A DNA stretch of 64,000 bases from Phycisphaerae bacterium (GTDB lineage: Bacteria; Chloroflexota; Anaerolineae; 4572-78; J111), in NCBI GenBank assembly GCA_028285035.1, contig JANQQF010000029.1:6277-70276 (forward strand). Reading direction: 5' to 3'. The position numbers and the translations under genes are program-made. The notes beneath the pieces are model-generated. The model worked only from the letters and a program-made list of their open reading frames with translations, made no database searches and was not told the origin of the DNA. Shown here piece after piece: positions 4,280-23,674 of the stretch (its first letter is position 1; each line of letters opens with the position of its first letter).

Positions 4280-6832
4280 TCACTCAATCAACTGGCGTAA
4301 GAGCCATTGACCTGAGGTCAAGGCTTTAAAATCCTCGGCCAGAGCGCCTGCTGTTTGATAACGTTCGTCGGGATTTTTGGCGAGGGCACGGGTAATGATC
4401 TGTTGGCTGGCGGTGGGGAGGTTGGCTCGGATTTGGCTGATGTCAGGGACAGGTTTGGTGAGATGGGCTAGGGCGGTGTCGCGTGGGGTGGCGGCTTGGA
4501 ACGGGGGGCGACCAGTGAGCATTTCAAATAACACCACGCCGAGGGCATAAATATCACTCCGGCCATCGAGGGCGGTTCTGTCCAGCTTTTTCATAATAAC
4601 CTGGACTTGTTCGGGACTCATATATTTTGGGGTACCGCCAATGGTGTTTTCCAGTGGCTCGTCAGTTCCACTTGTTTGTAACACGGCAATGCCAAAGTCA
4701 GCCAGGAAAGCCTCGCCTTTTGTGTTGAATAAGATGTTGCCAGGTTTGACATCGTTGTGAATGATGGAATCGGTGTGCGCCGCATCAAGCGCCTCGGCCA
4801 CCCGTTCAACAATTTTTATGATCTGACGAAGCTTCAAGGTCTGCTGTTGCAGTTTCTGGGCCAGTGTTCCCCCTGATAAATATCGCATGACAATAAAGAG
4901 CTGATTCTTGTGCTCCCCAAAATCATAAACATGGGCAATGTAATCGTGGTCAAGCCGAGCAATCAATTTGGCCTCATGCTGAAATTGTTGCTGAATATCA
5001 CCTGCTTGGGTGAGATGTCCTGATAGCACCTTGATAGCGACCTGCCGCTTTATATTTGGATCATACGCTAGGTAAACCAGACCCATCCCACCGCGCCCCA
5101 ATTCCCGCTTAAGTTGATAACGATCAAATGGTTGGTTTAATGGTGTCACTTCAGCCAATAGATCAGGCTCAAACTGATCAACCTGCCGTGCTGGTGGAGG
5201 TGGCTTGAGCGTGGAGACATCAATGATGTCGGATATACGGCTCATATGCCATCGCCCTGATTGCAACTCTTGCATCTTCACAGCTAACATTTTGGCCCAG
5301 GCATAACGCTCATCAGGATTTTTGGCCAACGCTCGGGTGATCAGACGTTGGTATTGCGATGGCAAACTTGGGTTGATTGCTTGTAGCGAGGGAACAGGCT
5401 CTTCTAAATGGGCGAGTGCCGTTTGGTAGGGGGTCTCAGCTAGAAAAGGCACTTCTCCGGTCAGGGCCTCAAAAATGATAATCCCCAAGGCATAAATATC
5501 ACTCCGAGCATTAAGCTGGGCCGATTCTCCCGCAATGAGGGCCTGCACCTGTTCGGGACTCATATATTTTGACGCACAGGCGGCATTCGTCTGATTGTCC
5601 ATGCTTGTCCAGGTTTCGGACATGCCTTCAATCGCAAAATCGGAGATGTAGGCCTGACCACGCTCATCAAATAGAATGTTGCTGGGCATAAGCTGACCGT
5701 GAACAATATCATGGCTATGGGCTTCGGACAGTGCCGCTGCAATACGCTCAATCATCGGCGTTAACTCCGATAGTGATAGCGCCCCATCTTTTTGGAGGCG
5801 GGTCTCCAGCGTTCCCCCATCCAAATAGGGCATCACCACATAGGGCCGCCCCTCATACTCGCCAAAATCATACACTTTGACGATACAGCGATGCTCTAAT
5901 GTGGCAATCAACTCAATCTCTTCCCTGAACTTATCCCGGAATGCTTGACTGATGGTTCCCTCGGTAGCCATCAGCTTGATAGCAACCGGGCGATCCAGCG
6001 TTTCATCATACGCCCGATACACAATCAAATTATCACGCCAGCCAAGTTCGGCTTCGATTTTATAACGGCCAATCGCAAAAAGGTTCGTTTGGGGGTGAGT
6101 CGTGTTGGTATCATCTGATTGACTCTCGATGGCTTGCTGAAAGGCCTCGGCCAAGGCTTGGGCTGTGGGATAACGTTGGTTTGGATTTTTGGCCAAGGCT
6201 TTGAGAATCACGGTCTGAATGGTTGGTAGGAGATGCGAGAGTGATTGTGTTATGTGGGAGGCTGCTTCATTGGGGGGGTGTCCCGTCAGCCACTCGTAGA
6301 GGATGCTGCCAAGAGCGTATAAATCGCTCATCCGGTTAGTTGAGCCATCTGCGAAAAAGCCGAAATCGGTCAAGATCGGTTCATCCACATCGGTTAACAT
6401 GATTTGGTACGGTGTGAGATGTCCGTGGACGACGCCTTGACTATGAGCATAATCTAGGGCGTCGGCGATGATCGCGAATTGGTGGGCCGTTGTGGTGAGA
6501 TCATCCGATGATGGCGAGGTATTTCGAGTGCGTCGTGGGTCGAACTCATCGGCCAACGTTCGATCATCCTCGGGTGCTTCCATAATTACAAGGGGGCGGT
6601 CATCAAGGGTATCAACATTGTAGATACGAGCGATGTAAGGATGATTCAGACTCAAGCTTTGGCGCAGTCTCGCCAAGAGTTCGCGTCCACTCGGTGAGGT
6701 GGCAGACTGTAAGAACTGTTTGATGATAACGGGTCGTTGTGCCTCTGTATCAAAGGCTTGATAGACGTTAAACTGTGGTGTGGCCTGAATTTGTTTATTA
6801 ACGACATATTTGCCAAATGAGTGTAAATCCAC
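4280..6832 (-). CDS. Ser/Thr protein kinase with three kinase domains, two degenerate
   Basis: 850 residues from GTG 6832; a frame extension to GTG 6886 (868 aa) is possible but contains the promoter. Three Hanks-type domains lie in tandem (about 5-250, 260-540, 575-850). Domain 1 has VHGHLTPYQIML where active kinases have HRDxKPxN, so the catalytic Asp is His (residue 138). Domain 2 has HGQ (Gln at 380), DFA instead of DFG, and a broken glycine loop. Domain 3 has LGRGGMG, VAIK, HNDVKPGN (Asp 694) and DFG, so it should be active. All three keep RSDIYALG-type C-lobe motifs. No transmembrane segment or PASTA domain is evident, so it is probably cytoplasmic. It is divergent from the FHA-thioesterase gene, a likely partner or substrate. 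Confidence 0.93.
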   Translation of the reverse strand: MDLHSFGKYVVNKQIQATPQFNVYQAFDTEAQRPVIIKQFLQSATSPSGRELLARLRQSLSLNHPYIARIYNVDTLDDRPLVIMEAPEDDRTLADEFDPRRTRNTSPSSDDLTTTAHQFAIIADALDYAHSQGVVHGHLTPYQIMLTDVDEPILTDFGFFADGSTNRMSDLYALGSILYEWLTGHPPNEAASHITQSLSHLLPTIQTVILKALAKNPNQRYPTAQALAEAFQQAIESQSDDTNTTHPQTNLFAIGRYKIEAELGWRDNLIVYRAYDETLDRPVAIKLMATEGTISQAFRDKFREEIELIATLEHRCIVKVYDFGEYEGRPYVVMPYLDGGTLETRLQKDGALSLSELTPMIERIAAALSEAHSHDIVHGQLMPSNILFDERGQAYISDFAIEGMSETWTSMDNQTNAACASKYMSPEQVQALIAGESAQLNARSDIYALGIIIFEALTGEVPFLAETPYQTALAHLEEPVPSLQAINPSLPSQYQRLITRALAKNPDERYAWAKMLAVKMQELQSGRWHMSRISDIIDVSTLKPPPPARQVDQFEPDLLAEVTPLNQPFDRYQLKRELGRGGMGLVYLAYDPNIKRQVAIKVLSGHLTQAGDIQQQFQHEAKLIARLDHDYIAHVYDFGEHKNQLFIVMRYLSGGTLAQKLQQQTLKLRQIIKIVERVAEALDAAHTDSIIHNDVKPGNILFNTKGEAFLADFGIAVLQTSGTDEPLENTIGGTPKYMSPEQVQVIMKKLDRTALDGRSDIYALGVVLFEMLTGRPPFQAATPRDTALAHLTKPVPDISQIRANLPTASQQIITRALAKNPDERYQTAGALAEDFKALTSGQWLLRQLIE

Positions 6833-6838
6833 GCCGTG

Positions 6839-6866
6839 ATTATACCCCAATTTAAAGGTGAGACAA
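6839..6866 (-). promoter_or_regulatory. Promoter of the kinase gene, implying a leaderless GTG start
   Basis: On the minus strand TTGTCT (6866-6861) and TATAAT (6844-6839) are 16 bases apart. The expected +1 is at 6832, the first base of an in-frame GTG, so the mRNA may lack a leader. There is no Shine-Dalgarno sequence before either possible start. Confidence 0.55.
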
Positions 6867-6892
6867 TCCCCACCCCTCCAATACACAATTGC

Positions 6893-7056: not shown

Positions 7057-8262
7057 ATGACAGAAGAATTTGGTAAATTGACGATTAATATTTCGGGCCA
7101 GCTAGGGCGCGAATTCGTTTTGTCTCAGCCCACGACCACGGTAGGTAGTGCTGAGACAAATGATGTGGTCCTGAAGCAAGCCAAAGTATCTCGGGCTCAC
7201 GCACGTATTGAGTGTTCAGAGACAGGCTGCACAGTTTTTGATCTCGACTCAGCGAAGGGAACGTACGTCAACAACCAACGGGTCCAGCAGGCCAATCTGG
7301 CCTCGGCCGACATCATTAAAATGGGCGAAGCCGAAGTTCGTTTTGATTCATTACTGGCCGACACCTCGTCAGATGCGACGCTTGTGGATGAGGCGATTTT
7401 TGTAGAAGAGACCCCCGCTTCGAATGGCAATGGGGCTTCAGGTCAAGCCGATGCAACGGATGCGCTGGTTGCCATTCAGGCTGATGGCGATCAGTTACCC
7501 TTTTTCTGCATTGTCGCTCGTCATAGCGACATCGCCCTGTTTGGTAATTTGGCTCAGGCATTGGGCGATGATCAACCCTTTTACGCCCTCCAGCCCCCCA
7601 AGTCGGCCGAGGCGGAGGCAGCTCGGACCAATCTGACTGCATTGGTCGATCATTACTTGGAGCAGGTGACCCAAGTGCAGAAGAATGGGCCGTATCGCCT
7701 TGGCGGCTTCAACATCGGTGGTTTGGTGGCTTTGGCAATGGCCCATCGTTTACAGGAACTGGGTCACGAGGTCGCTCTGCTGGCGTTGATTGACACGCCC
7801 TATCTGGCAAAAAATCCTTTGCCCTATTTGAGCTTTCGCTCGGTCAAAGCGGTCGACACCTTGTTCCAACCGCTGCAAAGTTTTATGCAATCGACCTTTG
7901 GCGAACAGATTGAGAAATCTGGGCAAGCTATTCGCGATGCTGTGTACAATCAATTTCCGCAGGTTGTTGATCGGGTTGAGGAGGATATCGAAACGTTCCA
8001 GGAGTCGATCATCGATGATGGTTACGAAGTCACCTTGCACGTGCTCAAAACCTATCAACCCCAACCCTTTTTGGGCAAGGCCAGCCTGTTTTTGGCCGAT
8101 GAGTCGCTGGTGAAATATTCTGGGGCCTTGTGGCACTGGCATCGTCTCATTCCCGATGGCTTGAGCGTTCACACCATCTCTGGTAGCTACATCGGCATCC
8201 TCAAAGAACCCGCCATCCATAAGTTAGCCAGTCAGTTGCAAAGTAGTTTAGCAGAGGCGTGA
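7057..8262 (+). CDS. FHA domain fused to a catalytically degenerate thioesterase
   Basis: 401 residues. Residues ~5-98 are an FHA phosphothreonine-reading fold (TTVGSAETNDVVL, VSRAHARIE, SAKGTYVNN). The usual GR is GS and the usual NGT is KGT, so ligand binding may be altered, although SRxH is kept. Residues ~145-400 align with the PKS/NRPS thioesterase family, most visibly with the TE ending the 16088-23674 synthase. Where that TE has GGWSLGG this protein has GGFNIGG (Ser to Asn219), and the catalytic-His motif PGEHMTLL is SGSYIGIL (His to Tyr378). It should therefore be non-hydrolytic: an acyl-chain binder, scaffold or regulator is inferred. ATG 7057 follows GGAG (7044-7047). It has its own strong promoter, divergent from the kinase. 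Confidence 0.88.
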   Translation: MTEEFGKLTINISGQLGREFVLSQPTTTVGSAETNDVVLKQAKVSRAHARIECSETGCTVFDLDSAKGTYVNNQRVQQANLASADIIKMGEAEVRFDSLLADTSSDATLVDEAIFVEETPASNGNGASGQADATDALVAIQADGDQLPFFCIVARHSDIALFGNLAQALGDDQPFYALQPPKSAEAEAARTNLTALVDHYLEQVTQVQKNGPYRLGGFNIGGLVALAMAHRLQELGHEVALLALIDTPYLAKNPLPYLSFRSVKAVDTLFQPLQSFMQSTFGEQIEKSGQAIRDAVYNQFPQVVDRVEEDIETFQESIIDDGYEVTLHVLKTYQPQPFLGKASLFLADESLVKYSGALWHWHRLIPDGLSVHTISGSYIGILKEPAIHKLASQLQSSLAEA

Positions 8263-8399: not shown

Positions 8400-9146
8400 A
8401 TGATAACCCTACCCAAAAACTGGATCTTCTGCCCCAAACCCAAACCCCAAGCCCGTCTCCGCCTCATCTGCTTCGCCTACGCGGGCGGCAGCGCGGCGGT
8501 CTTTCGGACCTGGCCGAACGATTTACCCGACGACATCGAAATGTGGGCCATTCGTCTGCCGGGGCGCGAGAGCCAATTGGCCGTGCCCCCGTTCACCCAA
8601 ATACCTGCCTTAATCAACGCCCTCGCTGAACACGTGGCTCCGCATCTTGATCAACCCTTCGCCTTCTTCGGTCATAGCCTCGGTGCCATCCTGGCCTTCG
8701 AGTTTATCCGCAAGCTGCGCCAAACGGGACGACCTCAACCCCGCCATCTCTTTGTCTCCGCCCACAATGCCCCCCAAGTACGGCGTCCCAACTCACCACT
8801 CCATCATCTGCCCGATGCCCAATTTATCACCGCCGTGCAAAATGGCTACAATGGCATCCCCCAAGCCGTGCTCAACGAGCCAGAGCTGATGCGAATGCTC
8901 CTCCCCGCCCTTCGTGCCGACTTCCAAATGGTCGAAACTTACACCTATCAGCCCCAACCCCCACTCACCTGCCCCATCTCCGCCTTCTACGGCCAAGCCG
9001 ACCCCGAAACCACCATCCCCCACATCGACGCTTGGCGTATCCAAACGACAGCCCAATTTAAGGTACGCGATTATCCCGGTGGACACTTTTTCTTGCAGCC
9101 GTGTCAGTCGGAAATCGTACAGGCGATTGTGGAGGATTTGGGGTAG
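8400..9146 (+). CDS. Type II thioesterase (PKS/NRPS editing hydrolase)
   Basis: 248 residues, the usual length for discrete type II thioesterases. These alpha/beta hydrolases remove misprimed or stalled acyl groups from carrier-protein phosphopantetheine arms. The triad is intact: GHSLGA (Ser93), the QADPET segment (Asp201) and GGHFFL (His229). Family markers FAYAGGSA and RLPGRE near residues 28-58 are also present. The ATG at 8400 has no obvious Shine-Dalgarno sequence. It follows the degenerate FHA-thioesterase gene on the same strand after 137 bp and ends 5 bp before the stop of the convergent ABC permease gene. It most likely serves the PKS/NRPS operon 7 kb away. Confidence 0.93.
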   Translation: MITLPKNWIFCPKPKPQARLRLICFAYAGGSAAVFRTWPNDLPDDIEMWAIRLPGRESQLAVPPFTQIPALINALAEHVAPHLDQPFAFFGHSLGAILAFEFIRKLRQTGRPQPRHLFVSAHNAPQVRRPNSPLHHLPDAQFITAVQNGYNGIPQAVLNEPELMRMLLPALRADFQMVETYTYQPQPPLTCPISAFYGQADPETTIPHIDAWRIQTTAQFKVRDYPGGHFFLQPCQSEIVQAIVEDLG

Positions 9147-9151
9147 GTTAT

Positions 9152-11563
9152 CTACTCATACGTCAGCGACTCACGCACACTGATCTGCGAGGCGCGTTGA
9201 GCGGGCAAGAGGCTGGCGAAGAGGGAGAGGATAATGACGATGATCAGCCACCAGAGGACACCGGAGAAGGAGTAGGTGTAGGTCAGGGGCTGGCGCAGGA
9301 AGATCCAGCCGATGTTGTCGCTGAGGGCGATGCTCAGCGGGATGGCGAGGATGAGGCCGAACAGCCAACTAAAAATACCGATGGAAATCCCCTCGACGAT
9401 CACAATCTGACGGATATCGCTGTGCTCCCCCCCGATGACGCGGACGATGCCAATTTCGGTGGTCCGCTCCAGCACATTGAGGCTCATCATATTGGTCAAA
9501 CCGATTCCCCCCACCACGGCAAAGAAGACGGTCATCAACAATAAAACATTGGTTAAAACGCCGAATAGGCTGCCCAAGGCCTGTTGTCGCTCAGCGTTGG
9601 TAATCGCGGAGGTGACGGACACGCCGATGTTTTGAAAGTGATTTTCCAACACCTGGCGACTTTGCAACTGAAAGTCGGGGCTATCATCAGTGGTGCTGAC
9701 CAAGGTTCGATTGGCGCGACCAGTGTCGCGGGTCAACTTAGCTAACGGATCATAATTGACATAGCCAACAGGAGCCAGTAGACGAGCGGTGCCCACCACC
9801 TGAACCCCGACGACCCCGACTACCTTCCAGACAGTTTCTCGCCCCTCAATTTTGAGCACAACTTCATCCCCCACCTTAACATCTGGTTCCTCGGCGGCAA
9901 AGCTGATGTCAAGCACAATACTATTTTCATCGTCGGGAGTCAGCCAGCGCCCCTCTTGTACGGTGGGTTCTAAATATTGGCTGGGCAGCTTCACCCCAAA
10001 AAGCTCAATGGTTTGATCCGACTCACTCCCGTCTGGCTTGACCCGAAAGCTCAAAACCGACAGCCGCTCTTCCACATCAGTGATGTCAGGCAACTCGGCT
10101 AAAATTTGTTCGATTTTGACGGTGCGTTGGCTGGTCGGAAAACGGATCGAAACATCTTCCTGCCAATAGGCAGACACCTCAGCGACGGTCGAGTCGAGCG
10201 AACTTTGCACGCTAATCACCGCAATAAAAATGGCGCCCGCCAAGGTTAAGGTAATCATCACCAGCAGCAGCCGAATTTTGTTGCGAAACATATTTCGTAA
10301 TGAGTAGCGAATTGGTCCGGGCAATCGCCCCAAACGTCGTAGTAGCTTCTCAACCGTGCCTGTGCCAAAATTGCTACTGCTACCTGCGCGTCCCATTGCC
10401 TCGCGGACGGTAATGCGGGTGCTCGATAAAATCGGGTACATCGCCGCGAGCAAGGGCATCACCAAACAAGCAAAAATATCCAGCAGATAAATCCACAGTG
10501 GATAGTCAACCTGCCCCACATCAAAATTTAACAACGTGGCGATGAAGACAGCCACCGCCCGCCCCACGAATGAGCCAAAGGGGACAGCGATCAGTAAGGC
10601 CACCAACCCGAACAGGAAAATGGCAAAGGCATACATGACAATGATGTGACCTGTTTCAGCCCCAACTGCCTTCAACGTGCCAATCTGTTGTACTTGCTGA
10701 GATAGAAGCGCGGAAATCGTGTTGATCACGAGGAGCATACTGAGCAACAGAGCCAAAACGCTCAAAGCCCACAAAATCAGCGAGGCAGCTCGGATGACCC
10801 CATCTAGCGGTGGCCGACCTGGCTCGGGGATAAATTTGTCGGTGACAAACAAGCCGCTATCTTCCAACTTTTCAGAAACTAGCTCGGTCACTCTGGTGAT
10901 GTGCTCTTTATCGAATCGGTTTTCCGCGACGACAAATTCTAACTCATTATAGAGCTGATCGCCTGTTAACTGTTGGTAGGTGTCGGGGGTGACATACCCA
11001 AACGAAAGCAAGGACATGACCGATGGTGATTGGTGCAGATGATGTACGATCCCGCTGATCGTCAAAGCTCTGGTTTTACCCTGTACAGTTTGAACCATCA
11101 GGGTATCACCTACTTCAGCATCAATCAGATTGATTGCCGATCGTTCCAACAAAATTGAACGGTTGGGGGGTGGCCAAGTCCCCTCCTCGATACGGAGTTG
11201 GTTGATGGCATTGTCATCAAAATCGGGTAGGGCCACCAAAACCAGCGACCCCCACGTCTCTTCATCCTCCTGCACCCGCATCCGAACCTCGCGTAACCCT
11301 TCAGCCTCAGCAATCTCGGGCATATTGCGAATCGTATCAACGACGTTGTCATCAAATGTTTGATTGGTCGTAAAAATTAAGGCACTGGCCGGATTGATCG
11401 CTAGATAACTGGCTTCCAGTTCTTGTGATAAGATAAACCAGCCCCGGGAGATGGTCGCTACCGCCATCGCCCCGATGGCAATGGTTAAGATGACCAGCAA
11501 GGTGCGTGGTTTGTTACCCCACAGATCACGGATGATTTTTCGCAATCGTAAATTAAGTGTCAT
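9152..11563 (-). CDS. ABC transporter permease with two FtsX domains (MacB/SalY-like)
   Basis: 803 residues. An N-terminal membrane helix ([18 protein letters not shown]) is followed by a large extracytoplasmic domain, a three-helix FtsX block (about 255-385), a second helix plus extracytoplasmic domain, and a final FtsX block (about 675-795) containing [12 protein letters not shown]. This duplicated layout is typical of type VII (MacB/Lol-like) systems that move lipids, lipoproteins or antibiotics. ATG 11563 is chosen because GAGGG lies just upstream and it overlaps the ATPase gene by 11 nt; an upstream in-frame start (11590) adds only nine unlikely residues. Its partner is the ATPase 11553-13205. 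Export of a lipidic or polyketide product is a reasonable inference. Confidence 0.92.
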
Positions 11564-13205
11564 CAGAGCCCTCACCGAACAGCTCATCAATCACTGGATT
11601 AATCTTTCGTTTTCTGCGGCGTAACTCAGGCATATATTCATCCAAAGCCGAGCTAAGCTGGCGGCGGGAGAGCAGTCGAGTCAGTTCGGTGGTTGACAAG
11701 TCATGTTCATCCATCAGTTGTTTGAAGGTCTCTCGATCAATGATCGCAACTTCAACCTGTTGATCTTGGCTCGCCCGCACCGTCTCCATCCGTTTGGCCC
11801 GGCGGATTAACCCTACCTCACCAAAAAATTGACCTTCACCCAACTGGTTGACAACATCCTCTCGTCCATCAGGCCGATGGTTGATCACGTCAACGACCCC
11901 GCTGATAATAATGTAAAATTCTTTGGCTGGGTCACCAAATTTTGTGATAATCTCACCGGGAGCGTAGGTCCGGCGGGCTTCAGGATTATCGGTCAGCGTA
12001 CCCAGTTCATCGGGACTAAAGAGGGATAGTGTTTGGGAAATGTGGGTGTTGGTCACTCGCTCCCGCATCAATCGTAAAATTTCATCTTTACTTTTGTCCG
12101 AATTGTCAACCAAATTCATAAAGGTTTCACGATCGAGCTGCATCACGATCGTTTCCGCCTCTTGGGAGGCCTTAACCGTTGCCGTACGGGTTCCCCCCTC
12201 AATCAGCCCAATTTCGCCAAAGTATTGTCCTTTGCGCAGATGGTCAATCGCTAATGTGCCTTTTTCCTGATGATCAATAAAGACTTCAGCCTCTCCCTTG
12301 ACGATAATGTACAGGCTATCCGCTTGATCACCCTGCTGAATGATGGTCTCGCCGGGGGCGTATTTGACCGGTTCGAGCTTGGCCGACATTTGAGCCAATT
12401 CCTGTTTATTCAGCGTCGGTAAGGCTTCGGCCACATATTGGTCGGCGATCTCACCGTCAGTGATGAAGACAATCCGGGGAATCCGGCCCGCCAATTCACG
12501 GTCGTGTGTCACCATCAATAGCGTTTTTCCCTGGCTAACAAAATCCTCGAACAGCTGAAAAATCTCATCCGCCGTTTTGGAGTCTAAACTTCCGGTCGGC
12601 TCATCCGCCACAATCACATCGGGGTCATTGGCCAGTGAGCGAGCAATCGCCACCCGCTGCTGCTGCCCGCCCGAGATGGCCGAGGGGAACTTGTCAGCTT
12701 GTGGGGCCAACCCCACCAACTCCAATAAGTGCATCGCCCATTCTTCCCGCTCTGTGTTCGAGCCAAAGGTATGGGCCAACTCCATGGGTAGAACGATGTT
12801 TTCCAAAACGGTCAGGGTTGGCAAGAGTTGGAAGAATTGGAAGATCACGCCCAGATTTCGCTTACGCCAGCGGGCCATCTGATTTTCGTTGAGGTCATGA
12901 ATCGGCACATTGTTGATGATCACCTCACCCGCTGTCGGACGGTCGATGCCTGTAATCATATTGATCAGCGTTGATTTCCCACTGCCTGATTTGCCGATGA
13001 CCGCCACAAACTCACCCGCCCGAACCTGAAGATCAACCCCTTTGAGGGCGGTAAAGGTGCCAGCTGGTGTTTTGTACGCCTTGACGACCTGTCGCAAATC
13101 AATCAAGGTGTTTGGCTCACCATTTGTCACAGATGGCAAGGGCTGGTCTGTAACTATTGCCTGGTTACGGCGAAATCGTGATAGGATGTTTAGAAATTGG
13201 CTCAT
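11553..13205 (-). CDS. ABC ATPase (LolD/MacB type) fused to two cyclic-nucleotide-binding domains
   Basis: 550 residues. Residues ~35-255 are an ABC ATPase with Walker [10 protein letters not shown], signature [14 protein letters not shown], Walker [13 protein letters not shown] and a switch His (MVTHDREL). Two cNMP-binding (CAP_ED) domains follow, about 280-395 and 405-525. The first has [10 protein letters not shown] and an R-T-A triad as in cAMP/cGMP binders; the second has [10 protein letters not shown] with R-M-E, so it may be degenerate. Most LolD-type ATPases are only ~230 aa, so the fusion suggests transport gated by a cyclic nucleotide or used as a localisation module. Third gene of the operon that starts at 15781; its stop overlaps the permease start. 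Confidence 0.93.
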
Positions 13206-13223: not shown

Positions 13224-14009
13224 CTATGCCTCAAAACTCAACTGGGCGTGACCAATTTGGAGCGTATCGCCGTTGGTGAGCGTATGGCTTTGAATACGTT
13301 GGGTGGCTAACCAGGTGCCATTTGCACTACCCAAATCGCGCAAGATAAATCTGTCGTCTTGGCGTTCGATCTGGGCATGATGCCGCGATACTTTTTGGTG
13401 GTTAATGACAATGTCATTGTCGTTGGCCCGGCCAATGCGCCACTGATTCTGATATTCAAGATCGATCTTCCAGCTTTTTTCTGGTGTCTGGATCGTGAGC
13501 CTTGGGGCAAAGGTGGTGATGGTGGCATCGGGAGTGAGTTCAGTTTCGGTGGTAGCGGGTGTTTGCGATGAGGCGATTTTTTCGGCAATGCCCTTAAGTG
13601 TTTTCAGTTGTTCATCAACCCGTTTCGCCAACGTGGCCTCGATTTTTGCCATCATCGTACGGACCAGCCAGTTACTTTTGATGATCTGATTTTGGTATGA
13701 CAATCGGGTGCCTGCGTCTGTTTCGCTTAAACGATAATCGACCTGCATCGAAAACTGCTTGTTTTCCAATAGAATGCCAAAGTGATACGGCTTATCGTAG
13801 GCGATGACTATCCCCTCATACTCAATCACCTGACCACCCTCACTGAGTTTGCGCTTGAACTTGGCCCCCCGACGATGATTTGGATCAAACGCTGACGTGT
13901 AATCCCCCGCTTCCAAGCTCATCCACGCTTTCAACTTATCGTGATCTTCCAAATACGGAAAAATGACATCAGCCGGAGCATCGATGTCAATGGTGTAGGT
14001 TAGCTTCAT
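13224..14009 (-). CDS. SRPBCC-fold protein with C-terminal FHA domain
   Basis: 261 residues. Residues 1-150 start MKLTYTIDIDAPADVIFPYL and have the SRPBCC/START-like pattern (a hydrophobic-ligand-binding cup, as in polyketide cyclase/CoxG families). Residues ~180-261 are a canonical FHA domain with WRIGRANDNDIVI, VSRHHAQIE and LGSANGT; all pThr-contact positions are conserved. The FHA closely resembles the second FHA of the next upstream gene, implying recent domain duplication. ATG 14009 is preceded by GAGAGG. It is 18 bp from the ABC ATPase gene. It may bind a lipid or metabolite in complex with a phosphorylated partner; enzymatic cyclase activity is not supported. Confidence 0.9.
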   Translation of the reverse strand: MKLTYTIDIDAPADVIFPYLEDHDKLKAWMSLEAGDYTSAFDPNHRRGAKFKRKLSEGGQVIEYEGIVIAYDKPYHFGILLENKQFSMQVDYRLSETDAGTRLSYQNQIIKSNWLVRTMMAKIEATLAKRVDEQLKTLKGIAEKIASSQTPATTETELTPDATITTFAPRLTIQTPEKSWKIDLEYQNQWRIGRANDNDIVINHQKVSRHHAQIERQDDRFILRDLGSANGTWLATQRIQSHTLTNGDTLQIGHAQLSFEA

Positions 14010-14056: not shown

Positions 14057-15781
14057 TCAACTCGTTAACTCATACTTCAAACGCATCAAAACATCTTCAT
14101 CCACGTAAAGTTGGTTGTGATCTTGCTGAACAGGATGAATTTCTGCCCCTTCCAAAACCGCGCTGCTGGCTGGAATCATCCCGTCACCATCTTTTGAGGT
14201 CGACACCTCCATCGATTGCCACTGCCCCGTCGAATCACGGGTAATGTTGATGCGAACGGGCGTGGTGATGCCATAGCCAAAAATGCAGATGGTTGATACG
14301 GTTGCCCGTTTGTTCAGCGCTTGGTGAAGCTCACGGCCAGCGTCCAGATAACGGTGACTTTCTGCCGTGGGTAACCAACTATTATCTTCGTAAAGATTAA
14401 TCGGATTGTTGTGTTGATCAAAAACGTCTTGTGAGACGGGTAGCATTTGATAGGCGTAGGGAAACGTCATAAACATTCGGATGATTTTTTCACCAAACAT
14501 CCCCCCCAGCGCGCCCATCGGCGTACGCAGATGGCCCAGCCGATCCGGAAGTAAGTTTGGTAAAACTTGAGGACTACCATAATTGGGGCCACCCATCAAA
14601 ATCAAGCGCCCCACGTGACGGTCACCACCCAGACAATCGATATAGTAACGAGCCACCAAGCACCCCAGACTATGAGCGATGAGGGTGATCGGCTGATCAA
14701 CAGACCAACGGTCAACCATCTCCGCCAATGATTGGGCGGCTTCACGCACATCGCCTCGCCAGTCGTAAGCAAATTCAAGCAAATCTTGCCCCCGATGGTA
14801 ATGTAGCGATTTTTCCAGATAGTCACCAATTCGATGATAGGCTTCAATTTCGATTAGTTTTGGCACAACGACAACATTATCCAGAATACCTCGGGCCTTG
14901 ACCTGATCGTTGTCCGTATAATACAGTTTTTCGGGGGTACGCAACATGGTTTGGATGTTTGGCCACACCTGCTCGGAACCACGCCACAGGACAGAGCCAA
15001 AGACACCCGGCACCACGATCACTGGCGCCCGCTCTGATTTTGGCTTGACCGCTGCAATCTGCTCAAGCTGACCAACATCTTTGAACATGAGTTGGGCGTG
15101 ACCAATATTCAGGGTATCGGTATGTTGGAGGGGGTGCCGCTCGATTTGCTTCGTGCCGAGGCGGGTGCCGTTGGCGCTCCCCAAATCATGAATGACAAAA
15201 TGATCGTCTTGCCGTTCGATTTTGGCGTGATGACGCGACACCTTTTGATGGTCGATGACAATATCATTGTCCGCACTACGCCCGATGCGCCAGCTTTCCT
15301 GCCCCATCAGCTTCACCTCCCAGGTTTTCCCTGGGGTCGTGATTACCAGTCGAGGAATGTGTAACAATTTATCACGGAGTGGTGTCGTCGACTCCGCTGG
15401 TTCTTTGTTCGAGGCCAAGTCGTCCAAAAATTGGCCGATGAGTTGATGACCTGGTGTGGTAGATTTAGCCTGTCGGCGGGCTGAGGGAGTGTGGCTAAAT
15501 CGCAACAGACTATTGCCGATTTTGATGACATTGCCAGAGTGAAGCGTAGTTTGCTCGACCCGTTGATCATCAACAAACACCCCATTGGCCGACCCCGCAT
15601 CGTAGACCACCCATGCATTTTCAACATACTCCAATCGAGCGTGGAGTCGCGACACTTTCTGATCATCTAGGACAATATCGTTGGTAACGTCACGCCCCAA
15701 TGTTAATTGCGTCCCTCGCAAAGGAAATTCTTGATTCGGTTGTGTCGATGACTCTAAAATTAACTTGGCTTTATGCGCCAT
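14057..15781 (-). CDS. Two FHA domains fused to an LCAT-like lipase/acyltransferase
   Basis: 574 residues. FHA1 (about 15-105) has TLGRDVTNDIVL, VSRLHARLE and GSANGV; FHA2 (about 150-235) has WRIGRSADNDIVI, VSRHHAKIE and GSANGT. Residues ~250-574 are an alpha/beta hydrolase of the lecithin-cholesterol acyltransferase type: VIVVPGVFGSVLW near the start, nucleophile elbow AHSLG (Ser371), GDGMIP (Asp533) and QDHNQLY (His555). The triad is intact, so esterase or acyltransferase activity is likely; the substrate is unknown. No signal peptide is seen, consistent with cytoplasmic FHA domains. It is the first gene of the operon running to 9152. The upstream Shine-Dalgarno is weak. Confidence 0.92.
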   Translation of the reverse strand: MAHKAKLILESSTQPNQEFPLRGTQLTLGRDVTNDIVLDDQKVSRLHARLEYVENAWVVYDAGSANGVFVDDQRVEQTTLHSGNVIKIGNSLLRFSHTPSARRQAKSTTPGHQLIGQFLDDLASNKEPAESTTPLRDKLLHIPRLVITTPGKTWEVKLMGQESWRIGRSADNDIVIDHQKVSRHHAKIERQDDHFVIHDLGSANGTRLGTKQIERHPLQHTDTLNIGHAQLMFKDVGQLEQIAAVKPKSERAPVIVVPGVFGSVLWRGSEQVWPNIQTMLRTPEKLYYTDNDQVKARGILDNVVVVPKLIEIEAYHRIGDYLEKSLHYHRGQDLLEFAYDWRGDVREAAQSLAEMVDRWSVDQPITLIAHSLGCLVARYYIDCLGGDRHVGRLILMGGPNYGSPQVLPNLLPDRLGHLRTPMGALGGMFGEKIIRMFMTFPYAYQMLPVSQDVFDQHNNPINLYEDNSWLPTAESHRYLDAGRELHQALNKRATVSTICIFGYGITTPVRINITRDSTGQWQSMEVSTSKDGDGMIPASSAVLEGAEIHPVQQDHNQLYVDEDVLMRLKYELTS

Positions 15782-16087: not shown

Positions 16088-19000
16088 TTACTTCTGAATG
16101 TCTTCTGCTCTAGCGCGTGCTAAGGCTAACTGCTCTTTCAATATCGCTGCCACGCTCGAGACGTGTGGATCGCGCAAGAGGGTCATGTGCTCGCCAGGGA
16201 TGTCGATGGTCGTCATTGAGGATTGAAGCAATCGGCCCCATCCCAAATCTTGTCCGTGTTGCTTGGCTTGTTCGGTCGTCCGGAATATCGTGAGTGGACC
16301 TGAGTAGGTTAGGGGGCTGTAGGCTAAACTGGCCCGAATATGTTGCAGCAAGACTCGACTAACTTGACCAACGATAGCACGGGTCGATTTTGGCGCTTGA
16401 TCGTCGATTTTTTCCTCCAACGCTCGATAATCGCGAACATACGGCCATACGTCACGAATTGCATTGTTGGCCAATCTGATCGAAGGGGGCACTTGCTCAA
16501 AGATGGACATTTTTCTGAAAGGCACCGACTGGTCGATGATGCCAAGGAAGGCAACCTGTTGCCCTTTCGCTTCCAAGCGGCAGGCCATTGCATAGGCAAT
16601 CCACCCCCCCAGTGACCAGCCCCCAAGATAATATGGCCCCGTCGGTTGTACTTTTTGAATAGCCTCAATATAACAATCAGCCATCTTTTCAAATGACGCT
16701 AGCGGTTGCTGCCCCATTTCAACGCCCATTGCTTGTAGGCCAAAGACAGGCTGATCAGAGCCTAAGGCATGCGCCAATTTGAAGTAGGGGAAGACGACCC
16801 CAACTAAGGGGTGAACGCAGAAAAGCGGCGGTTGGCTACCATTGGTTCGCATGGGCACCAACGGCGACCATCCATCTGACTCCTTGATTGCTAGGTCAGG
16901 TGCGGTTCCGTTGACTGGGGTGATGGATTGGGCTGGTGTAGGAACGAGGTCTGGCTGAGCAGGGTCAGGCGTAACGTCTTCGGTTGGCACCTCATCTAAT
17001 GGGTCTTCATCTACCAATGGTATCTCATTTGATGGAGTGGATGTTTCCGTGTCAACTGACTGGATGGGTATCATCTCCTCAGTCGTTTCTGGAGCATCGT
17101 CTTCGTTAAATAGTGTATTATATAAATATTCCACCAACGCCTCGATGCTGGGGTTGTTTAAGACGACGGTCGGGGTCAGCGATATGCCCAATTCAGCCTG
17201 GAGTCGATTACGCAGCTCGACCCCCATCAATGAGTCCATCCCCAGATCCATAAATTCTAGCTGTGGGTTGGGCGGCTCAGATAGACCTAACACCCGAGTC
17301 ACTTCCGTCTGCATAAAGCTGAGCAAAATCTCGCGCCGTTCCTCATCTGAGGCCGCCTCTAGTTGAGGTCGTAAGTTGGACTGCGCCACCCCAACGGACA
17401 CAGGCTTGATGAAGGCTGCATAGAAACTGCTGGGTTCATCCCCGCCCAGTTGTTTCGATAGGGTTTGCCAATGGATGGGCAAGATAGTGATGTGGCCCAA
17501 GGGTAGATTATACAACCGACTAAACATTAGGCGCCCTTGTTCTGGAGAGATGGCGTGGAGGCCGCGGGCTCGGTACTGCTCCTCCAACGGAGCGGCCATT
17601 CCCACTTGGGCCCAATTGCCCCAAATGATGCTTAGTCCTGGCAAATCCTGCTGGCGACGGTGTTGGATTAGGGTATCCATAAAGGCGTTGGCCGCCGAAT
17701 AGTTGCTTTGCCCCGGCGAGCCTAAAAGGGCGGTAATCGAGGAGAAGGTGATAAAGAAATCCAAGGGGATGTCTTGGCTGTATTGATGCAAGTGCCACGC
17801 GCCAGCGACCTTTGGGGCGAACACCTTTTCATATCGGGCTAAGGATTGCTGGGCCATAATGCCGTCATCGAGCACCCCAGCCGCGTGGATTATCCCCCGC
17901 AACGGAGCGACCTGTTGCGCCGTCTCAATCATTCGCGCTACGTCATCAGACTTGGTGACATCGGCCTGCACCACCTCGATGTGCACCCCTTCTGCTTCAA
18001 GTTGATCCAACCGTTCTTGGGTGGCTTCATCTTGCACGCCACGTCGTCCGGTCAAGACCAAATGCCGCGCCCCATCAGCCACCATTTGCTCGACAATTTC
18101 CAATCCCAATGCCCCCAAACCACCTGTAATCAAGTAGCACCCTGTCTCTTGCAACTCAGGCTGTTCGGGGGGAGTGAAAGAGATGACGACCTTCCCAATA
18201 TGTTTGGCGTGTTGCATGAAGCGGAATGCCGCACTAATGTCTTGAACGGGGAACACTGTGTGGGGCAGCGGATGAATTTCCTTGGTTTCAAAGGCCGTCA
18301 CCATATCGCGCCAGATTTGGGTCAATCGATCCGGATCTTTGACAATTTCTTCACGAATATCAAAGGGGATATAACGAGCATCAGGTCGTTTTTCGGCGAC
18401 TTGTTCCTCACTCCAGATGCCCAGCTTGCCCAATTCAATAAATCGCCCACCTTGCTGAAGCACGTCAAAACTTCGATCAACAAAATCATTGCTCAAACTA
18501 TTGAGGACAACAGCCACGCCCTTGTTCTCGGTCAGTTGCATTACTTCGTCAGCAAAGTCAAGCGTCCGGGAATTCATAATATGCTTGATCCCCTGCCCCT
18601 CTAAAAATGCCCGTTTTCCTTCACTGGCCGTGGCAAAGACCTCACCACCGATGGCGTTTACAATCTGTATGGCCGCTTGACCGACTCCGCCTGCTGCCGC
18701 GTGGACCAAAACCCTCTCGCCCGGCTGCAGATCAGCCAATGTTTTTAAGCCGTACCACGTTGTTAAATAGGTCAGGGGGATGGTGGCCGCTTCCTCAAAA
18801 CTGACCCCCTGAGGGATGGGGGCCAATCCCTCGGCGGGTACGGTGAGGTAGCTGGCCAGACTGCCTTCCATCAAGCCCATCACTGTATCACCAACCTCGA
18901 ATTCGTGAACTTCATCCCCCACAGCCACGACTGTCCCGGCAAACTCAAAGCCCAAGGGTAGATCGCTGGCCTGATGGATGTTGAGGTGTTCGGCATAATA

Positions 19001-22000
19001 CTCGGCTAACAAACCAAGCGCATTGAGCACATCACGGAAGTTCAACCCAGCCGCTTTGACTTCGACCTCGATCTCTTTTGGCTGCGGGACCCGTCGTTGC
19101 AGTGGTAAAATTCGTAATTGATCGACCGTGCCATATTCAGCCAACCGCACTTGGATTGATTCACCTGGTTGCCTTGTCATCTCTGGCTTCCAGCGACTGA
19201 GGCGAGCTGCATAGCGCGTGCCATCTCGATAGGCCACTTGTTGCTCTTTGTCATTTGCCATCATCTCAACGACTAGTCCTGCCACAGTATCATCAGCCTC
19301 TACTAGATGATCGACATCGATACAGGTGCAATTGAACTGGGGATATTCGATTGTAATGGTGCGAGCCAAGCCCCATAAAGCACCCTGTGCGGCCGCACCT
19401 TGAGCCGCAGCACCTTGCCCAATACCCTCAGACGAAATGGGCGAGGCTTGCACTTGCAGACCATCGGGCACTTGTAGCTGCGGCATCGAGTCAGCGATAT
19501 CTTGACTGCCCGCTGTCACCAACCACAGCCGAGGGGCCAGAACCAACTCGCCTAGCGCTTGGACTAAATGCAAAACACCACCGCACAACTGTAGGGTATG
19601 GGTTGGCAGATCAAGATTGTTTTTATAATCAGTGCCCCAGGCGTAGATAACATCATCAAACGTCAGGCCAAAATCGTTGGTTAAAGAGGTCAGTAGCTGC
19701 TGAAAATGACTGGGTTGGGTGGGATCAAGGCTGACTTGATTTAAAGGTGTCTCGTCGATGGTTGACAAATCCGGTGGTGTCGTTCCGGCAGTAGCGAGGA
19801 TAACGTGATGCCCCTGAGCCTGCAGTTGATTGCGTAGGTGCCCGCCCAAACCATCATCTGCTCCAAAAATCAACATGTTTTTGGGCTTGGCTGGGCTAGT
19901 GATTTCTGTCTCATCGTCTGATGACGTTGATGTGGCGGCAAGGGCTTGCGCTTGCCAGTCAATTGTGTAGAGCCAATCACGTCGCCATTGCTGAGCCTGT
20001 AAAGCACTGCGTGAGATGGTGCGGGTCTCAAAGCCATCAATTTCGACCACAACCTCCCCACGATTGTTGAGCAAATACATTTGCCAGCGTTTGTCCTCTA
20101 GGGGATAAGCATAAGCCCACCACTCAGTGCCCGTGATTGGTTGGTGAATGTGTAATGACTCAATCGCAAAGGGCAATTGTAGATCATTGGATACCGATCT
20201 GTCACGGGCGGCCCCTGCTGGCTGAAAACAAGCGTCGAGCAACCCAGGGTGAATAACGTACCCTTCTATCGAAGCGACCGCCTCTGGGAGCGTGAGTTTG
20301 CCCAAAATTTCTACTTCATAATCAGCCTTTTCCTTCTCATCAGGTCTATACAACCAGCCCTCAGTCCCCCAACGAAAACTTGGCCCAAATATCAAATCCT
20401 CTTCCGCGTCATAGACCGCTTCGATATCAATCACCTCAACAATCCGGCTACGCAATTCTGATAGAGGCAAGGCCTCAGGTTGCTTGACCTCACTCACCAC
20501 GACGCGTCCCGTGGCATGAATGCTGTGCTGAAGTTCAGCCTGCTCTGGATCGAAACTGATCAATTGAAAATTAACCGTCGTCTGATGCTCACTCATCTGT
20601 TGAGGTGTGAAGATGATCTGGGCCTGTCGCGATTGATCTTCCGGTAAAATCAGTGGCTCCAGGAAGACAACATCAGCCAGATAGCAGGCACGATTTTCAA
20701 AAGCCAACTCTGCCGCACTAAGCACCATTGATAGATGGCTAGCTGCCGGTGAAACGACAATATCTTGCAGACGATGGTCGTTGAGAAAGGGAAGGTTTGT
20801 AACACTCACCTCGGTCTCAAAGAGCGTTTCGTTGACGAGTGGGGAGCGGATCATGGTGTCGATGAGCGGTCTGAGGCTTTGCCCACCTTGTTTTTTCGGG
20901 GTCATATTGGGCCAGAAGAATTCGCGTTGGAATGGATAGGTCGGAAGAACAATACGGCGTGGCTTCGATGTATCGGTATCATCTTCGTAGAATTTGGCCC
21001 AATCCACCGTGGCCCCCTGCGCGTACAGCTGCCCCAAGCTGGTCAACAATTGCTGCCGATCGTCCCGATTGGGCCGGAGGCTGGGGAGCCAAGCAAGCTC
21101 GGCCTGAGTGTCAGCTAAACATTGTTGACCCATACTGACCAAGGTGGGTTTTGGGCCAATTTCGACAAATGCGGTGACGCCCTGCGCTTGGAGAGCAGTG
21201 ATACCATCCATAAACCGGACCGCTTGCCGCACGTGTTGCACCCAATAATCGGGCTTGGTCACCTCATCGCTGACCAACTGCCCGGTCACGTTGGAAACCA
21301 AGGCAATTTTGGGTGGGGCGTAGCTGATCTGACGAGCTGTTTCGGCAAAGTCGGCTAACATTGGCTCCATCAGCGGCGAATGGAAGGCGTGCGACACCAC
21401 AAGTTGATGCGTTCTGATGTCATCCTCAGCCAAGGTAGCCACAATACTTTGAACAGCTTCCCGTTCCCCCGAAATGACGACACTCTGTGGACCATTAATG
21501 GCTGCGATTGAGACCGTGTCCGAATGTTCAGCGAGGGCAGCTTTCACCCGCGATTCATCCGTCATCACCGCCACCATATCGCCGTCTTGGGGCAGGGCCT
21601 GCATCAAACGCCCTCGCTCAGCGGCGAGCCTTAGACCATCTTCTAAAGTGAATACCCCAGCCACGCAGGCCGCGACCAATTCGCCGATGCTGTGACCGAG
21701 TACAATGTCGGGGGTGATGCCCCACGACAGCCACACTTGGGCCAGGGCGTACTCCACAGCAAATAAAGCGGGCTGGGTGTATTGCGTTTGTGAAATCGGC
21801 GCATTGGCAGGATCGGAGTTGCTATCAGTATTGGGATAAACAACATCAAGTAGAGATTGACCAAGCAGCGGTTGTAAAATTTCATCACATTGCTGAAGGA
21901 TTTGACGGAACAGCGGTTGACTTTCGAAGAGGGTTCGCCCCATCTGCTCATATTGAGCGCCCTGGCCAGTAAAAAGAAAGGCAATGCGTGGCCCAGCTTG

Positions 22001-23674
22001 ATAACTGGGGGAGTAACCTATTTGCACCGAGGGCTTAGTCGTGCCCTTGGCAAAGTCGAGCAAATCGGCTTGCATCGCAGCGCGGCTGGGCACAATCAGA
22101 CTCAAGCGGTGGGCAAAGTGACTACGCCCCACCGCAGCAGTGTAACAAATATCATTCAATGGGGTGTCGGGATGATTGGTCAGAAATTCACCGTATCGTT
22201 GCGCTAACTCGGGTAAAGCCTCTGCCGCTTTTGCGCTCAACACCAGCAAATGTGTTCCATCCTCGTTTGCCAATTCGTGTATTTCATCTGTCGATGCCCC
22301 CTCGATGATGACGTGGGCGTTGGTGCCACTCATACCAAACGCACTGATCCCGGCAATCGAGGGAATATTGCTGGGCCAGGGCGTCAGTTCGGTGGGGATT
22401 TGCACGGGGGCAGTCTCCCAATCGACATAAGGGTTGGGCGTTTCAAAATGGAGATGTGGTGGAATTTCACCGTGTTGGAGGAGCAACACCGTTTTAATCA
22501 ACCCAGCGATACCTGAGGCGCCTTCCAAATGGCCCATATTGGTTTTGACTGAGCCGACCCACAGCGGATTCTGAAGCCGTTCAGCAAACACCTCGCTCAA
22601 GGCCCCGATCTCAATGGGGTCGCCCAAAATCGTGCCTGTCCCGTGGGCCTCGATATAGCCAATATCCTTGGGTGTCAGATTGGCCCGTTTGAGGGCATGA
22701 CGAATGACGGCCTGCTGGGCCGGACCACTTGGTGCGGTCAAGCCACTGCTGCGCCCATCGTGGTTAATCATCGAGCCGCGAACGATCCCCAAAATGTTAT
22801 CGCCATCGGCCTTGGCTTCGGAGAGCCGCTTGAGCACCACAAAACCGCAACCTTCTCCCCGCGCAAAACCATCTGCCTTGGCATCAAATGTTTTGCAGCG
22901 GGCATCCGGGGCTAAAATCGTGAGTTCATCCGCAGCATTATGGACTTCGTGGTTCAAAATCAGGTTGACCCCGCCCGCTAAGGCCAGATCACACTCGCGA
23001 CTTCGTAAACTTTGGCAGGCCTGATGGACAGTGACGAGAGATGATGAACAGGCGGTATCGATGACCTCACATGGCCCGTTTAAGCCTAAGGTAAAAGAGA
23101 TGCGCCCGGCGGCAATGCTTAACATGACCCCGGTCATAAAGTAAAATGTTTCTTGCTCAAAAATGATTTCGTTGCTGTGTAGAACAGCTTCAAAATCGCT
23201 GCCATCCATTCCGACAAAAACACCAGTCAGACTGTCAAGCAACGACTGTGGCACAATGGCCGCAGACTCCAGGGCTTCCCAAGCCACTTCAAGCAACAGC
23301 CGTTGGTGCGGGTCAAGGGCTTTGGCTTCGCGGGGCGAAATACCGAAAAATTGGGCATCAAAAAAGCCCGCATTGTTGACAAACCCACCCCGAAATGGCG
23401 TTTCATTACCGTGTTCATCAACCATCGTATCGTAATGGGTTTTTAGGCCAGCTCGATCCTCCGGCACGGTCGTGATTAAATCGGTCCCGGCCTGAAGCAG
23501 TTCCCAATATTTTTCGGGCGTATCGGCCCCATTAGGAAAACGACAGCCCATTCCGATAATAGCAATTGGCTCAACTTGTTTGCCTTCCGCCACTGCCAGC
23601 TTGGCTTTCAATGTTTTGATTTGTAATAATGCATCTTTAATCAGCGCCGTGTTATTATCGTTGTTATTAGCCAT
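16088..23674 (-). CDS. Type I PKS, terminal fully reducing module: KS-AT-DH-ER-KR-ACP-TE
   Basis: 2528 residues. A helical N-terminal docking segment (1-35) precedes the KS (active Cys ~209 in [19 protein letters not shown]). The AT (GHSIGE ~662, HAFHSP ~763) has the malonyl-type motif. DH follows (His ~963, Asp ~1147 in [10 protein letters not shown]), then ER ([13 protein letters not shown] ~1662), KR (GGLGALG ~1852; Ser-Tyr-Asn all present, Tyr ~1992) and ACP (LGMDSLM ~2143). The TE has GGWSLGG (Ser2354) and PGEHMTLL (His2496), both intact, so this synthase completes and releases the chain, with a saturated C2 unit added here. ATG 23674 follows AAAGGA. It is the last gene of the operon. 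A QGAAA tandem repeat sits in the DH-ER region. Confidence 0.96.
19380..19417 (-). repeat. In-frame 15-bp tandem repeat encoding QGAAA units
   Basis: Two 15-bp units (19388-19402 and 19403-19417) plus a partial third encode [13 protein letters not shown] just before LWGLARTI. Sister synthases have only a short SQAPLWG-type linker here. It looks like replication slippage in a flexible linker. Confidence 0.6.

Follow-up and report, generated by a model that had tools for sequence, protein, structure and literature searches.

What does a thioesterase (TE) do in a polyketide gene cluster once both its nucleophile and its catalytic histidine have been exchanged? The question is raised by a gene at positions 7057 to 8262 of the window, the stretch of 64,000 nucleotides analysed here. 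The original prediction described it as an FHA domain fused to a thioesterase that has lost Ser and His, and proposed that the protein is a pseudo-thioesterase coupled to a phospho-signal. Fusions of this kind are carried by some Chloroflexota bacteria. It could equally be asked whether the gene is simply a decaying copy, or whether the protein remains a catalyst of another kind.

Sequence and predicted structure of the FHA-thioesterase

The frame at 7057-8262 is intact and encodes 401 aa, as had been claimed. Its parts are as follows.

7057..8262, + strand: gene for the predicted FHA-pseudo-thioesterase (FHA-TE), 401 aa (open reading frame, Pfam, 15 homologues)
7057..7350, + strand: FHA domain, residues about 1-98 (Pfam, model, alignment)
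7147-7149, + strand: codon of Ser31, in place of the Arg of the GR motif (15/15 FHA-bearing members)
7372..7401, + strand: conserved linker motif, residues 106-115 (alignment)
7378-7380, + strand: codon of Thr108 in the linker motif
7459..8259, + strand: thioesterase-fold domain, residues 135-401
7711..7713, + strand: codon AAC of Asn219, nucleophile position (codon reading, profile alignment)
7792..7794, + strand: codon GAC of Asp246, kept acid of the former triad (codon reading, alignment)
8188..8190, + strand: codon TAC of Tyr378, catalytic His position (codon reading, profile alignment)

Both halves of the fusion score above their Pfam cut-offs, the FHA domain (PF00498) over residues 27-90 with 60.8 bits against a cut-off of 20.7, and the thioesterase domain (PF00975) over residues 160-251 with 74.7 bits against 26.4. 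A profile alignment of the family places the nucleophile Ser of NocB at residue 219 and the His of NocB at residue 378. In line with this, the codons, the alignment and the structure model agree that Asn219 and Tyr378 stand in place of Ser and His, and the TE of the PKS in the window carries the intact motifs GGWSLGG and PGEHMTLL with which the protein had been compared. Roles are assigned to individual residues here as in canonical thioesterases and FHA domains.

The thioesterase alpha/beta-hydrolase fold is present in the predicted structure. Residue 219 lies between strand 213-218 and helix 221-234, which form the nucleophile elbow, D246 follows strand 239-245 in the acid loop, and Y378 follows strand 369-374 in the His loop. 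Mean pLDDT is 73.6 for this model and 68.9 for that of the homologue P0008, with values of 24-32 and 24-29, respectively, in the linker blocks. Whole-protein TM-scores in Foldseek are low (0.39-0.46 by query), because the matches are to single domains and an insert near residues 256-290 is poorly predicted. FHA folds are absent among the Foldseek rows listed, which does not count against the FHA assignment. A shifted alternative nucleophile or His, named beforehand as an observation that would speak against a pseudoenzyme, was looked for in the family alignment and in the predicted model and was not found in either.

One claim about the gene did not stand. The strong promoter attributed to it does match at 11/12 positions; the scanned stretch holds 2 promoter-like sites against a mean of 2.1 in shuffled sequence, which is chance level, and the promoter argument was dropped.

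The catalytic pair across the family

Protein searches recovered 15 homologues of FHA-TE at 37-57% identity. Scoring was limited to the candidates with the most shared words, 7998 in the first search and 7997 in the second, so the homologues number at least 15; the second, which used the alignment of homologues, added none among its 7997 candidates. Together with the window protein the family comprises 16 sequences, all of which have an FHA domain except P0015 (278 aa). In the tree, the family is set apart as one clade by a branch supported at 99/96.

The column of the nucleophile (219) reads Asn in 10, Ser in 4 (P0002 and P0009 among them), Tyr in 1 and Gly in 1 of the 16 sequences, and that of the His (378) reads Tyr in 14, Phe in 1 and His in 1. 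The catalytic Ser is thus absent in 12/16 members, Cys in all 16, and the catalytic His in 15/16, the one retaining it being P0016, the most diverged member. A nucleophile paired with His, whether Ser+His or Cys+His, occurs in 0/16; homologues with an intact triad, which might have marked the window copy as a decaying one, were looked for among these sequences and not found. No His is conserved in at least 90% of the family anywhere in the TE part of the alignment, and Asp246 is kept by every member. On the tree, column 219 must have changed five times and column 378 twice. Because Ser persists in 4/16 members and P0016 keeps its His, Asn219 itself is not what matters; the column varies. The His is lost in 15/16, and the nucleophile position drifts, as is permitted in the absence of catalysis.

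For comparison, 71 fetched proteins and the type II TE of the window were examined, and TE rows were obtained for 49 proteins that do not belong to the family. As these were fetched by similarity to the FHA-TE family, the set is biased towards it; P0024, which has two TE domains, is counted twice, and the type II TE of the window is omitted from the column counts. In these relatives, every domain row long enough to cover the His column has His (39/39), and the 50 domain rows show Ser (42), Cys (7) or Ala (1) as nucleophile. Nucleophile and His are seen together in 38/49 proteins, the other 11 stopping short of the His column. P0024 is a tandem thioesterase whose first domain has the Ala nucleophile and keeps its His, and whose second domain is intact.

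The relatives have 32 conserved positions, and at 29 of these the family shares their usual residue, the departures being 209, 219 and 378. Several other residues are invariant in the family and have no assigned role. The loop after strand 149-152, which we take to be the oxyanion-hole loop (near residues 153-157), has been replaced. Across columns 153-157, the relatives read His (30/44), Gly/Pro (37/44), variable, Gly (23/41) and Gly (32/41), and the 16 family members Thr/Val (13), Ala (12), R155 (14), Y156 (15) and Ser (10). Column 156 is His in the window protein, though Tyr in 15/16 of the family. Directly after the replaced loop, D158 is found in 15/16.

The one relative for which codons were compared lies in a genome referred to here as G202. 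It is 49.8% identical to the window protein over 400 codons, with pN 0.31 and a saturated pS of 0.77; differences at the three codon positions number 140/100/260. By these comparisons, the catalytic loss is local, the fold is kept and FHA-TE is under purifying selection. That it is a constrained pseudoenzyme is very probable.

The FHA half has moved away from canonical function as well. Five conserved residues, Gly, Arg, Ser, His and Asn, are given for FHA domains in PMC4238996. In the 15 FHA-bearing members, the corresponding counts are Gly 15/15, Arg 0/15, Ser 12/15, His 15/15 and Asn 0/15. The predicted GS for GR and KGT for NGT are both present in the window protein, and the Asn of NGT is missing from every FHA domain of the family. 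With Arg and Asn each absent from 15/15, canonical phospho-Thr reading by this domain is unlikely, and the view that both halves of the protein have shifted from their textbook roles proved right.

Between the two halves, the linker is variable and disordered except for the motif DAT-x-x-D-x-x-x-F at residues 106-115, where Thr108, Asp111 and Phe115 are each conserved in 15/15. The motif has a mean modal fraction of 0.82, the linker on its two sides 0.33 and 0.45. The other stop-to-stop frames of at least 150 residues, both in the window and in the G202 contig, were scanned for the strict pattern, and none contains it. Some FHA domains favour Thr followed by Asp at +3 (pTXXD). On its conservation, Thr108 and its motif are the best candidate phosphorylation site. 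The linker may also act as a switch in cis; its low pLDDT leaves the structure model neutral on this.

A probable kinase partner and two biosynthetic neighbourhoods

FHA-TE lies beside a kinase gene and at one side of a PKS/NRPS gene cluster, the relevant features of which are the following.

4280..6886, - strand: three-kinase gene, divergent neighbour of FHA-TE (open reading frame, Pfam)
8400..9146, + strand: type II thioesterase with GHSLG and PGGH motifs, next gene after FHA-TE (open reading frame, Pfam)
11553-13205: ABC ATPase with two cyclic-nucleotide-binding stretches, beside a MacB/FtsX-type permease
13224..14009, - strand: START/polyketide-cyclase-like domain with a canonical FHA domain (GR, NGT) (open reading frame, Pfam)
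14057..15781, - strand: FHA-FHA-alpha/beta hydrolase, GR canonical, serine motif intact; immediately follows the terminal PKS gene
16088..23674, - strand: terminal PKS module with intact C-terminal thioesterase
51301-59667: first NRPS/PKS protein, with a formyltransferase domain at its start

The protein encoded at 4280-6886 contains three Hanks-type kinase domains (Pfam), and an alignment of orthologues suggests that it probably starts at a GTG at 6832, 54 bases inside the listed start. In 13 orthologues (the window protein and 12 from elsewhere), the catalytic Asp is missing from domains one and two in 13/13, and the third has invariant H710, D712, K714 and N717 (HxDxKPxN) and D730-F-G in 13/13. 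The best 120 of 213 matches of this search were listed, and further members may exist.

Kinase orthologues and FHA-TE homologues come from contigs of equal length in four cases, of 5772, 10939, 12061 and 37192 bases. This pairing by equal size, in which each size is that of the longest contig per sequence cluster, covers 4/15 FHA-TE homologues and 4/12 kinase orthologues among the matches listed. FHA-TE contigs with no kinase counterpart include those of 8639, 5997 and 5825 bases, and kinase contigs with no FHA-TE counterpart those of 36514, 14233 and 14161 bases. These contigs are long enough to hold the partner, so it may be absent from them. The contig of 37192 bases belongs to G202, where the FHA-TE gene is followed by the kinase gene on the same strand, with a gap of 26 bases by the start of P0075 or an overlap by the longest frame. 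The pair is thus divergent in the window and oriented alike in G202.

The system is rare. Full-length FHA-TE, with both domains matched, was found in 1/396 genomes of the class; matches to TE or FHA at E 1e-30 occurred in 30/396. At E 1e-60, FHA-TE occurred in 1/25 genomes of the order and 1/400 of the phylum. The genome was G202 each time; a second one was not found in the class, order and phylum samples, which overlap, the class and phylum searches scoring at most four candidates per genome. The three-domain kinase, at E 1e-150 or better, was likewise found in 1/396 class genomes, again G202, with two candidates per genome scored; G202 also yielded a second match, of two domains, to the kinase profile. 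On this record, FHA-TE and the three-kinase protein are probably partners. The idea that the pseudo-thioesterase is coupled to a phospho-signal gains from the linked kinase gene and the conserved linker Thr; the part of it that would have the FHA domain read phospho-Thr is doubtful, as the FHA Arg is lost family-wide.

In the window, the neighbours of the pair are the type II thioesterase, the ABC exporter, the two further FHA fusions and a PKS/NRPS line of the cis-AT type, with acyltransferase domains in four of its five megaproteins. The exception is the protein at 51301-59667, in which none was found at E 1e-5; the other four PKS proteins have one each. The line further contains an acyl-AMP ligase, a carbamoyltransferase and the formyltransferase domain.

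The G202 pair is embedded in a trans-AT PKS cluster. A HetI-like phosphopantetheinyl transferase, FHA-TE and the three-kinase gene follow each other on one strand, and an FMN-dependent dehydrogenase comes after the kinase. The cluster also encodes a stand-alone AT, an AT fused to a PfaD-type domain, a KS, an HMG-CoA synthase-like protein and two enoyl-CoA hydratases, and its PKS has AprA-like domains, three KS and, in the part read, no AT. At the cluster edge are a hybrid sensor kinase with a propeller (L061 11516-16360) and a LuxR-type response regulator (10531-11592). That one pair accompanies assembly lines of two different kinds speaks for a general role towards such lines, although two loci make a small sample. 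Elsewhere in this genome, a two-domain kinase of the same family, with a pseudokinase and a kinase domain, is encoded at G202:C450 (L067 4545-6518); in the 14 kb read there, no PKS was apparent among the listed frames.

Three G202 proteins (L075 11888-13624, L076 4911-6665, L077 3332-5218) are related to the FHA-FHA-hydrolase of the window, with 55-59% identity. Two of these stand directly after NRPS/PKS genes that end in an intact thioesterase, and one precedes a type II thioesterase that is 53% identical to that of the window. In all four FHA-FHA-hydrolases the serine motif is retained, as is GR in each of the two FHA domains. The START-FHA protein has three G202 matches at E 1e-20, all over the FHA part. 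FHA-tagged hydrolases thus recur in these clusters, FHA-TE being the one that has apparently given up its active site.

Possible roles of FHA-TE

Comparison with described systems yields partial likenesses. Unlike the type I thioesterases of PKS and NRPS (Pks13, NocB, EntF; PF00975), FHA-TE lacks the nucleophile-His pair, has a replaced oxyanion loop, and is a stand-alone protein with an N-terminal FHA domain where they have an upstream carrier protein. Nor could it edit by Ser-His hydrolysis as type II thioesterases do, one of which, with intact motifs, is encoded next door (8400-9146). The GarA/OdhI switch of Actinobacteria (PMC12321487) resembles it in its single FHA domain, in a disordered tail that bears a candidate acceptor Thr, and in having a Ser/Thr kinase at hand. 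In GarA/OdhI, however, the acceptor motif is ETTS and precedes the FHA domain; FHA-TE has no such motif there, its different DAT-x-x-D motif follows the FHA domain, and it lacks the FHA Arg and the Asn of NGT and is fused to a TE fold. In Mycobacterium ulcerans, the kinase PknQ and the FHA protein MupFHA are encoded near each other and interact directly; unlike FHA-TE, MupFHA has all five of the conserved residues, and it needs Arg41 for binding, an Arg-to-Ala change lowering kinase binding, with no TE fusion mentioned in the sections of PMC4238996 at hand. The myxobacterial miuraenamide cluster has an FHA gene, orf12, beside miuE among PKS/NRPS genes, and a thioesterase gene; in contrast to FHA-TE, these are separate proteins, and the available portion of PMC10051162 gives the FHA protein no role. 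The FHA-specificity literature, as far as the excerpts of PMC4238996 and PMC6509490 go, contains no description of an FHA-TE/kinase system. A literature search mostly outside subscription journals turned up neither an FHA-thioesterase fusion nor a pseudo-thioesterase, and no paper on Chloroflexi with FHA and PKS.

Our favoured reading, which we hold tentatively and at somewhat less than an even chance, is that PKS and PKS/NRPS clusters carry a regulator coupled to a kinase, in which the conserved pseudo-thioesterase is the half that senses or docks. Here, the TE fold would bind what thioesterases normally meet, a chain tethered to a carrier protein or a released product, and would not cleave it. 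The FHA domain and the Thr-bearing linker would connect the bound state to the partner three-kinase protein, whose intact third domain would be expected to phosphorylate Thr108 or a nearby site. Phosphorylation would then create or abolish contacts between the kinase or the synthase and the linker, the FHA domain or the TE, such that linker, FHA domain and kinase would convert binding into a phospho-signal, or receive one. We infer the ligand, the phosphorylation and the direction of control; that carrier-protein or product binding goes together with a phospho-switch is possible, at the same slightly less than even strength as the reading as a whole. The PKS context rests on two loci, and both loci read have it.

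The main rival, which we consider unlikely on balance, is that the pocket binds a free small molecule, such as a product, an acyl-CoA or a fatty acid, and that the protein serves the kinase as a feedback sensor and does not dock to carriers. The pocket loop has been rebuilt with conserved Arg, Tyr and Asp and not eroded, Asp246 and the fold are kept, and the kinase linkage would suit such a sensor. Two unlike PKS types would call for different ligands. Against this rival, the phosphopantetheinyl transferase beside the G202 gene, together with the TE ancestry, favours carrier proteins at least equally. It is improbable that the protein is still a catalyst by a new mechanism, for instance as an acyltransferase relying on Asp246, Tyr378 or some other residue. 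The retention of Asp246 (16/16), Tyr378 (14/16) and Ser (4/16) and the invariant residues with no assigned role would fit this, but the absence of a Ser+His or Cys+His pair from all 16 members, the replaced oxyanion-hole loop and the lack of a well-conserved His in the TE part speak against it.

A further proposal, no more probable than a new catalytic mechanism, is that FHA-TE and the three-kinase protein are a general signalling pair that merely lies near PKS genes. Just two loci were read, their orientations differ, and the two-domain kinase of the same family in G202 has no PKS noticed among the listed frames nearby; yet the G202 pair is part of a same-strand biosynthetic run from the phosphopantetheinyl transferase to the FMN-dependent dehydrogenase, upstream of the PKS, and a frequency of 1/396 in each search is unlike that of a housekeeping system. 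That FHA-TE is a decaying thioesterase on its way to loss is highly improbable. Ser and His are indeed both lost in the window copy, but the pair is missing throughout a clade whose members are 37-57% identical to it, pN is well below pS, and the fold residues are kept. We rejected decay on the homologues, the tree and the codon comparison, and the original reading as a pseudo-thioesterase, with no intact pair in the family and no shifted nucleophile or His, holds up.

Returning to the kinase-coupled regulator, a more specific and more speculative form of it, to which we give rather less weight, is a portable, phospho-regulated checkpoint that would serve cis-AT and trans-AT PKS alike. In this form, a dead TE would inspect product or carrier-bound chains. 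By way of a non-canonical FHA domain and a Thr-x-x-Asp linker, it would control or obey a kinase with two pseudokinase domains.

To our knowledge, post-translational control of modular PKS/NRPS lines has been little described. If the proposal is true, an enzyme fold and a phospho-reader fold would both have been kept in this family while the textbook residues of both were exchanged. A kinase-paired pseudoenzyme in two unlike PKS clusters would then be a testable regulator of chain growth or release, and would offer a handle for silent clusters.
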